Positions 3,425 through 4,170 of a DNA stretch of 64,000 bases are shown here, piece after piece (the first letter of the stretch is position 1; each line of letters starts with the position of its first letter). This DNA comes from Verrucomicrobiota bacterium. Lineage in GTDB: Bacteria > Verrucomicrobiota > Verrucomicrobiia > Opitutales > Puniceicoccaceae. The position numbers and the translations under genes were made by a program. The DNA lies in assembly GCA_038744685.1 (NCBI GenBank), contig JBCDMB010000007.1:62001-126000 (forward strand), read 5' to 3'. Under the pieces are notes generated by a model, which did no database searches, was not told the DNA's origin, and saw only the letters and a program-made list of their open reading frames with translations.

Positions 3425-3500
3425 GCCACCTTAGCTCAGCTGGTAGAGCAGTTGATTTGTAATCATCAGGTCGTCGGTTCGATCCCGACAGGTGGCTCCA
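3425..3500 (+). tRNA. tRNA-Thr (anticodon TGT)
   Basis: Cloverleaf with a perfect 7-bp acceptor stem (3425-3431 with 3490-3496), the D-arm motif TTAGCTCAGCTGGTAGAGC, an anticodon loop TTTGTAA and a T-loop GGTTCGATCC. An encoded CCA is at 3498-3500. One U-U mismatch falls in the anticodon stem (positions 28-42). A small CCGTT/AACGG hairpin follows and may help end transcription. Confidence 0.95.
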
Positions 3501-3568
3501 CCACCTCCCGTTCCATTAACGGTTATTAAAATGGGTGGATGACGGACAGGGGGCTTTTGAAATCCAGG

Positions 3569-3679
3569 GGTCTTTCACGGATGAAGGCTGCCCGACGGAA
3601 GTGCCACGACGGAGGAGTGGACGTAGGCCGGGCATACGATATCACAGAGTCCGAACGCTTGAGGTTACGGCTTAGCAAG
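3569..3679. repeat. Dispersed intergenic repeat, copy A
   Basis: About 111 bases between tRNA-Thr and tRNA-Leu recur with roughly 90% identity at 4021-4130. Both copies contain AAGGCTGCCCGACG, a GGAGGAGTGGAC segment, GGCCGGGCATACGATATCA and GGCTTAGCAAG. The segment beginning GAAGGCTG is also recognisably related to part of the 165-bp repeat at 19031-19471. No reading frame is conserved. Bases 3501-3758 hold no gene. Confidence 0.8.
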
Positions 3680-3758
3680 CCATCAAATTGCCCTTGCTAA
3701 TCGACAACGGGCATCCTTACGCTCGTCGCTTGGTTGAATGGCAAAAGCCGTGAAACTC

Positions 3759-3843
3759 GCCCGGGTGGTGGAATTGGCAGACACGCTGGATTTAGGATCC
3801 AGTGCCGCAAGGCGTAAGGGTTCGACTCCCTTCCCGGGCACCA
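3759..3843 (+). tRNA. tRNA-Leu (anticodon TAG)
   Basis: An 85-base class II tRNA. The acceptor stem is GCCCGGG (3759-3765) with CCCGGGC (3833-3839), the anticodon stem-loop is CTGGA-TTTAGGA-TCCAG, the T-loop is TTCGACT and there is a short variable arm. CCA is encoded at 3841-3843. The dispersed hairpin repeat starts immediately at the CCA end, as it does at tRNA-Leu(CAA). Confidence 0.95.
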
Positions 3844-3876
3844 GCCTTCGCTCAAGCGCAGCGCAGGCCGAAGGCT
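3843..3876. repeat. Hairpin repeat abutting tRNA-Leu(TAG)
   Basis: AGCCTTCG (3843-3850) pairs with CGAAGGCT (3869-3876). The first A is the last base of the tRNA CCA. The same outer arms border the repeat after tRNA-Leu(CAA). The 339 bases from 3844 to 4182 contain this hairpin, repeat copy B and another hairpin, and no gene that I can support. Confidence 0.7.
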
Positions 3877-4020
3877 GTCACGCGGAGTCTCGAAGAGCGT
3901 AGGCGGGCCTTAACCCACCGACTTCCCAACGCTCAAGGCTACGACTTGGCAAGCCAGCAAAAGACGGGATCGGCACTTCGGCTGGCTCCGCCCTTACCAT
4001 TGCGGCTTTGTATTCCCGTA

Positions 4021-4130
4021 GGTCTTTCAAGGACCAAGGCTGCCCGACGAAGTACCACGACGGAGGAGTGGACCTAGGCCGGGCATACGATATCAGAGAG
4101 TCCGAACGCTTGAGATTACGGCTTAGCAAG
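4021..4130. repeat. Dispersed intergenic repeat, copy B
   Basis: Second copy of the 110-base element described at 3569-3679, in the same orientation about 450 bases away. Differences are scattered substitutions and single-base gaps, which fits an old duplication rather than a recent insertion. Confidence 0.8.
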
Positions 4131-4138
4131 TAACCGCA

Positions 4139-4170
4139 GCCTTCGCTTGAACGGTGCGTAGAGCGAAGGC
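4139..4170. repeat. Short hairpin of the same GCCTTCG family
   Basis: GCCTTCGCT (4139-4147) pairs perfectly with AGCGAAGGC (4162-4170) around a 14-base loop. It sits 12 bases beyond the stop codon of the leftward HAD gene (4183) and may act as a transcript end for it, although no T-run follows. Confidence 0.55.

Follow-up and report, generated by a model that had tools for sequence, protein, structure and literature searches.

A probable compact mobile element with a GIY-YIG nuclease behind the 3' ends of bacterial tRNA and tmRNA genes

The 3' ends of tRNA and tmRNA genes are classical safe harbours for integrases, with tRNA 3' ends serving as classical att sites. A different tie between tRNA genes and a mobile nuclease comes from phages: SegB, a free-standing GIY-YIG homing endonuclease of T-even phages, is reported to cut inside phage tRNA genes at the motif RAWTSGAAC and to cluster with tRNAs of many isotypes, co-localization having been scored within 1000 bp on either side (PMC13096335). 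By our own reading, this motif would be the complement of the T-loop sequence GTTCSAWTY found in all tRNA-like genes. We regard SegB, by analogy, as the nearest known system to the elements analyzed here and as the strongest external support for our interpretation, as in both cases a GIY-YIG gene lies next to tRNA genes of many isotypes. However, SegB is phage-borne, whereas the present element resides on bacterial chromosomes, on the same strand as the tRNA gene and nearly always 3' of it. It further departs from that system in its left end exactly behind the CCA, its conserved palindromic module, its gene-less copies, its tmRNA targets and the essential lack of any domain beyond GIY-YIG.

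Several other systems offer partial parallels. The REP/REPIN-RAYT systems likewise comprise palindromic noncoding repeats with nonautonomous copies, but they use a different class of enzyme, and the accessible parts of their descriptions (PMC3116915, PMC3733652) tie them to no tRNA 3' ends. Theta ribozymes are structured elements that abut tRNA 3' ends; they are, however, self-cleaving phage RNAs, and no nuclease gene is described in the sections of the source at hand (PMC10879173). In Methanopyrus kandleri a palindrome lies behind about half of the tRNA genes, but it is specific to that archaeon, stands ~10 bp behind the tRNA, differs in sequence and has no linked gene in the available part of the report (PMC5217627). 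A literature search, with most subscription papers and preprints outside its coverage, gave among the entries listed no account of a GIY-YIG element at the 3' ends of tRNA genes in bacteria; we take this novelty in print as a lead rather than a proof, the related known kind being tRNA-linked GIY-YIG mobile genes.

Elements behind tRNA genes in the window and its genome

The window, that is, the whole 64,000-nucleotide stretch analyzed, spans C7:62001-126000 of a 3.64-Mb, 56-contig genome of a Verrucomicrobiota bacterium and contains four tRNA genes identified by ARAGORN. The original prediction held that the two tRNA-Leu genes are fused to a hairpin element, and this fusion is real: ARAGORN places both genes at the coordinates given there (Table 1), and the encoded CCA of each runs directly into a palindrome of the form AGCCTTCG...CGAAGGCT. 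The first base of AGCCTTCG is indeed the last A of the CCA, as had been remarked, but this sharing means no more than that the element begins immediately after the encoded CCA. The arms are separated by 18 nt in the TAG copy and by 80 nt in the CAA copy, and the supposed pairing between them is the minimum-energy RNA fold in the latter (19030-19128, z -4.7) but not in the former (z -0.28). AGCCTTCG occurs 12 times in the window against an expectation of 2.9, a count reached in none of 100 shuffles. The two older copies that had been noted nearby are genuine relatives, sharing 93% identity over ~110 nt, and the first of them is 79% identical over 56 nt (E 1.2e-4) to an element behind a tRNA-Met gene at C1:184178-184233.

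What the original prediction overlooked is an associated nuclease gene, a broken copy of which stands in the window itself, starting 19 nt behind the CCA of tRNA-Met. Over 117 nt, the TAG element shares 81% identity with the tRNA-Leu(CAG) element (C3:149297-149412), itself followed by a GIY-YIG gene, and the CAA element has 75% identity, over 142 nt, with the autonomous tRNA-Leu(GAG) element. The copies at both tRNA-Leu genes look like gene-less relatives of a nuclease element that have lost the nuclease domain. The 165-bp unit of the array behind tRNA-Leu(CAA) encodes the peptide MVDTSTRDEGCPPKCRDEVADAGGPTKKEHF*, and the same leader is seen in the nuclease ORFs (MNPTTSRDEGCPPKCRDEVEDGGGP...). 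We read this unit as an internal-deletion derivative from which the GIY-YIG domain is missing; the last residues of its mini-ORF may correspond to the nuclease C terminus, the match being short.

Table 1. Positions of tRNA genes, element copies and nuclease-related frames in the window
Feature	Position	Strand	Basis or remark
tRNA-Thr(TGT)	3425..3500	+	ARAGORN; old element copy 69 bp behind, not abutting CCA
Degenerate gene-less element copy (P1 3' arm and P2-like hairpin)	3569..3679	+	Similarity to 4021-4130 and to tRNA-Met element
tRNA-Leu(TAG), encoded CCA, target gene	3759..3843	+	ARAGORN
Gene-less element abutting CCA of tRNA-Leu(TAG)	3844..3960	+	P1 arms 3843-3850 (AGCCTTCG) and 3869-3876 (CGAAGGCT), then P2-like hairpin ~3877-3908
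Second degenerate element copy	4021..4130	+	
Further P1-like hairpin copy, CAGCCTTCG..GAGCGAAGGC	4137..4173	+	
tRNA-Met(CAT), target gene of broken nuclease copy	8090..8165	+	
Broken GIY-YIG gene, 2 in-frame stops	8184..8390	+	PF01541 match C7:70184-70390, E 1.3e-11
tRNA-Leu(CAA), encoded CCA, target gene	18946..19031	+	ARAGORN
Tandem array, ~2.7 x 165-bp gene-less elements, first unit abutting CCA	19032..19471	+	Repeat span 19031-19471; arms 19031-19038 (AGCCTTCG) and 19119-19126 (CGAAGGCT)
Mini-ORF	19096..19191	+	N-terminal leader of GIY-YIG ORFs, nuclease domain absent
Mini-ORF, second copy	19261..19356	+	

Elsewhere in the genome, every BLAST match to the element stands behind a tRNA, starting within a few bases of its 3' end, or lies in the same array; placement at random with respect to tRNA genes was thus not seen. 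The 3' flanks of all 51 tRNAs found were read. Outside one cluster of 12 tRNAs on contig C5, which was left out of the denominator, 9 of 39 carry the junction CCA/GCCTTCG, namely those for Leu (CAA, CAG, GAG, TAA and TAG), Ala(GGC), Met, Val(GAC) and Val(TAC). Variant starts are found behind Arg(CCT) (TCCTTCG) and Gly(CCC) (TGCTTCG); by our reading of the sequence, the hairpin behind tRNA-Arg(CCT) is followed by an apparent IS transposase gene. The cluster on C5 (55933-56971) is dense, with many members that lack an encoded CCA and have low scores, unlike the rest of the genome, and is possibly of phage or other foreign origin.

The genome holds seven matches to PF01541, six of which lie directly behind a tRNA or tmRNA gene on the same strand, namely behind tRNA-Asn, tRNA-Met (two genes), tRNA-Leu(GAG), tRNA-Leu(CAG) and the tmRNA; the seventh is a long UvrC-like frame. 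Behind tRNA-Leu(GAG) and tRNA-Met, an ORF that opens within the hairpin module continues into the GIY-YIG domain, and another hairpin copy follows. Counting against the mobile-element reading, some of these genes (those behind tRNA-Asn and at 8184 behind tRNA-Met) are without the GCCTTCG hairpin. Approximately 1.7 kb behind the tmRNA, a sub-threshold match to the MISL RNA family was also recorded (locus L064, 2946-3213; 67.7 bits against a gathering threshold of 274.6), truncated where the locus ends.

The nuclease and its linkage to tRNA and tmRNA genes

PF01541 was found in all five proteins searched (E 5.5e-11 to 4.7e-18), as the sole domain in four, the fifth adding a weak overlapping match to T5orf172. 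Homing endonucleases of the I-TevI/Seg type carry a DNA-binding domain besides the catalytic one; no such domain beyond GIY-YIG was found in the five bacterial proteins. An NCBIfam search with three proteins gave no match, and PHROGs added little. An alignment of 45 sequences has 17 invariant columns, including Y32, Y44, R54 and E90, which we take to be the catalytic Tyr, Tyr, Arg and Glu of the GIY-YIG fold; the nuclease is in this sense intact. Among solved structures, the closest sequences are the UPF0213 protein BH0048 (2.3e-10) and SLX1 (4e-8), and an AF2 model (pLDDT 81) with the order beta-beta-alpha-beta-alpha-alpha finds its best fold match in Slx1 (E 1.3e-4). We know of no tRNA-linked element for Slx1 or UPF0213 proteins. 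Slx1 acts on branched DNA, according to its structure entry 6seh, and a nuclease that reads a cruciform or hairpin structure would fit this likeness.

The five GIY-YIG proteins of this genome were used to scan genome contigs, and the best 80 of 542 confirmed relatives, which come from many phyla, were examined further. In 68 of these best 80, ARAGORN finds a tRNA (53) or tmRNA (15) gene within 500 nt upstream on the same strand, as against none upstream on the opposite strand, two downstream on the same strand and none downstream on the opposite strand. As a separate observation, the tmRNA is over-represented as a target, in 15 of the 68 linked loci, though a genome has one tmRNA gene and dozens of tRNA genes. 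For five of the 12 unlinked copies, the upstream sequence is shorter than 700 nt. In most of the 12, judged by eye, the hairpin is immediately preceded by a CCA, either bare or at the end of a 3' fragment resembling a tRNA or tmRNA. 

A test across the order, with UvrC as the internal control, covered 52 genomes; of 96 GIY-YIG matches listed, 65 were examined, the 31 left out all having frames of at least 400 aa. Of 43 small-frame matches, 25 have a tRNA or tmRNA gene no more than 800 nt upstream, as against none of nine mid-sized and none of 13 large, UvrC-like ones; the 65 examined yielded no such gene downstream or on the opposite strand upstream. The remaining 18 of the 43 small genes have none within 800 nt upstream, the contig ending there in some cases. 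Further, 132 genomes of the order contain 40 occurrences of a pattern of T-loop and CCA/GCCTTCG and a single one of the reversed pattern. Thirty of these loci were read: ARAGORN recognizes a tRNA or tmRNA in 17, eight of which have a GIY-YIG ORF within 900 nt, and the other 13 comprise some plain chance occurrences and some fragments or missed real tRNAs. The tally of isotypes is uninformative on a SegB-like preference for the T-loop because all tRNAs share the T-loop.

A tree of 84 nuclease copies mixes phyla, with 31 label changes against a minimum of 14; this mixing is no proof of transfer, because the tree rests on 79 columns and many of its forks are open. In this poorly resolved tree, two copies of the present genome group with Opitutales-type Verrucomicrobiota copies. 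IMG/VR contained two relatives, one of them, by eye, behind a tRNA-like fragment.

The linkage of the nuclease bears on the earlier suggestion that the hairpins are REP-like, in which case a Y1 (RAYT) transposase would mobilize these REP/REPIN-type palindromes in trans and the nuclease gene would be incidental. The palindromes, the gene-less copies and the presence of 15 Y1_Tnp (PF01797) matches in the genome speak for such a mechanism. However, none of the Y1_Tnp loci falls at an element or a tRNA, the five compared with the elements share no element sequence (best E 0.05), the gene that is linked is a GIY-YIG nuclease, and this linkage holds across phyla. We consider a REP/RAYT origin very improbable, and the fusion of tRNA and hairpin is neither chance nor REP/RAYT. 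The Y1_Tnp matches, three of which fall within 6 kb on contig C25, apparently form a population of RAYT or IS200 type that has no connection with the tRNA elements.

Architecture of the element and its presence or absence at orthologous sites

Boundary statistics were drawn from the 63 of the 68 linked loci in which the end given by ARAGORN is the CCA. The first seven bases behind this exact CCA are GCCTTCG in 23 and TCCTGCT in 9. A palindrome, P1, starts at the first base behind the CCA: 79% of the 63 loci have a palindrome score of at least 9 at the boundary, as against 1.5% of random positions. In 44 of the 63, the pairing takes in exactly two tRNA bases, the CA, which pair with a TG after the 3' arm; in one locus (L145) it reaches 14 bases into the acceptor arm. 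P1 is followed by a second hairpin, P2, with the consensus TG[CT]CC[TG]CCGAAGCCTTGGCGAAGG[AC]GG[GA]C, which was extracted from 47 of the 63 loci. Among 15 compact P2s picked by hand from these 47, 93.3% of the pair cells are standard, against 86.0% after shuffling, and 15 cells show double changes, against 5.9 in shuffles, none of 500 of which scored as high; sliding the partner column by one to three positions lowers the pairing to 25-51%. In many copies the ORF begins inside P2 or immediately after it. Tandem junctions and the Mesorhizobium sites place the right end a few bases past the stop codon; no target-site duplication or terminal motif was found at this end. On our best reading, then, the full element would consist of a structured 5' module and one GIY-YIG nuclease ORF of ~80-110 aa, ending a few bases after the stop codon.

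Sites with and without the element can be compared between genomes. In the congener G002, none of the 40 tRNA 3' flanks read carries the CCA/GCCTTCG junction, and several have plain T-run hairpins instead. The gene upstream is conserved, and orthology thereby established, for tRNA-Met, Val(GAC), Val(TAC), Gly(CCC) and Cys; the G002 orthologues of Met, Val(GAC) and Val(TAC) have this conserved gene and no junction. A comparison of empty sites around tRNA-Met/coaD in the genus gave nothing because the gene order there is not conserved. Conversely, in G003, where three loci covering four RNA genes were read, tRNA-Cys is occupied, the same site being empty in both the present genome and G002, and the tmRNA is occupied as well. 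Behind its tRNA-Asn (L225), G003 also has two tandem matches to the tRNA-Asn GIY-YIG protein of the present genome. A GIY-YIG gene that stands beside its target gene with variable presence, as with free-standing homing endonucleases of the SegB type, is thus what we find. The proposal of a mobile unit that targets tRNA 3' ends gains support from the nine junctions of this genome, from their absence in the congener and from the recurrence of the arrangement behind tRNAs and tmRNAs in many phyla.

These comparisons also weigh on the other half of the original prediction, a conserved tRNA terminator, and on its extension to a host RNA element, in which the hairpins would be tRNA/tmRNA 3'-end processing signals or terminators and the small nuclease a cotranscribed maturation factor. 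Such a role would suit the position directly behind the CCA, the paired CA and the covarying, conserved P2, and phage theta ribozymes occupy the same position (PMC10879173). However, the element lacks conservation between the congeners, with ordinary T-run hairpins at several of the empty orthologues; it is carried by a minority of tRNAs only; and the window elements have no terminator-like site. In a search for intrinsic terminators (a G+C-rich hairpin followed by a T run), none was found at the element copies, the two sites detected lying in tRNA-Thr and at 4259-4273. Known RNA families and ribozymes likewise gave nothing at gathering or permissive Rfam thresholds: apart from tRNA/tmRNA, no Rfam RNA matches the CAA element of the window up to E 5, and no credible one matches ten other element loci up to E 0.5. 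We therefore regard the terminator as unsupported and a host RNA element in the broader sense as unlikely. A self-cleaving HDV/theta-type ribozyme behind the tRNA would share the position and the structured RNA, but those same searches contain no ribozyme match, though Rfam 15 may lack a theta model, and both P1 and P2 form simple hairpins. The base that follows the CCA also varies, whereas the theta cleavage site is described as G1 (PMC10879173). Among the explanations weighed, a ribozyme strikes us as scarcely credible.

A record of probable repeated insertion comes from the interval between tRNA-Ser(GCT) and a porin gene in Mesorhizobium, which was read in 30 of 61 genomes (the best matches) and sorted by start sequence. 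Six of the 30 have a first element family (TCCTGCTTCGC...), with 541-597 bp between CCA and porin where measured; ten have a second family with a different GIY-YIG protein, mostly at 434-444 bp; and the rest comprise six short relics, five sites with no element (137-149 bp where measured) and three with unrelated sequence. Occupied sites of 434-597 bp against empty ones of 137-149 bp give an insert of ~300-460 bp with one GIY-YIG ORF. In one genome (L087), 33 bp of the left palindrome of the second family lie between the CCA and the first family and are absent in a close relative (L103). As this one site has either family, relics or no element, and on account of the L087 insertion, insertion behind the CCA most likely happened there more than once.

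It could also be asked whether the GIY-YIG genes are merely cargo or relics of integrase-driven islands, left near tRNA att sites. Some copies are indeed preceded by no more than a 3' fragment resembling a tRNA, as is the case at att sites, and at tRNA-Ser(GGA) of Mesorhizobium (L226-L231) the tRNA is nearly identical in six genomes while the sequence downstream differs in each. One of these six loci carries a GIY-YIG element, and the locus offers no clean empty site because it looks like an island hotspot. Against relics of islands stand the small insert with its single ORF over an empty site and the palindrome start behind the CCA, unlike the product of a crossover inside the tRNA. In addition, 72,556 plasmid and 50,697 phage records were searched by tblastn with two queries, without a positive control, and none matched. 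We judge an island origin quite unlikely.

A proposed mechanism and its implications

Taking these comparative findings together, we propose that the hairpins and genes behind tRNAs probably belong to a compact mobile element that encodes an Slx1-like GIY-YIG nuclease and settles specifically at tRNA and tmRNA 3' ends, and that its gene-less copies lack the nuclease domain. Counting against this reading are the 18 unlinked small GIY-YIG genes of the order, the 13 pattern loci in which ARAGORN recognizes no tRNA or tmRNA, the TAG palindrome, which is not the minimum RNA fold, and the right end, which shows neither a duplication nor a terminal motif. A preference for parking at such ends without any active targeting mechanism may instead account for the pattern. 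We infer that the nuclease cuts at tRNA 3' ends, that insertion proceeds by repair of the break and that the CA:TG pairing is of importance. The feature recognized would be one common to all tRNA-type genes, either the T-loop/CCA sequence or a branch formed by the tRNA gene or the P1 cruciform. The element might then be copied in by repair, with its left end anchored at the CCA and its right end needing no fixed sequence; because of this anchoring, the tRNA would stay intact. Pairing of P1 with the CA could mark the site as occupied or guide the cut, and the gene-less copies would be internal deletions that persist or were moved in trans. More tentatively, and with some doubt, these elements might constitute a new, bacteria-wide class of minimal transposable elements, in which one Slx1-like GIY-YIG nuclease and a palindromic end read any tRNA/tmRNA 3' end, the target CA pairs with the TG of the element, a structure-guided target choice whose logic would resemble that of IS200/IS605 elements, and gene-less satellites are moved in trans.

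If true, this would be a second, unrelated solution to the use of tRNA ends as safe harbours, achieved by an element of ~450 bp with a one-domain nuclease and working at any tRNA-type gene without harm to that gene. A large group of small GIY-YIG genes, most of them without a name, would gain a function, the recurrent hairpins behind tRNAs would be explained, and the element would provide a tractable system for studying the recognition of tRNA genes by a very small nuclease. The lesson of phage SegB and its tRNA genes may also extend to the chromosomes of many phyla.

A different palindromic family may be present in the same genome. The tRNA-Asn gene and its GIY-YIG gene are flanked by partial tRNA-Asn-like copies (L063, 1200-1380 and 1740-1800), the middle of each of which is seemingly replaced by a palindrome TCCCGAA...TTCGGGA, possibly representing a family that inserts inside tRNA genes.
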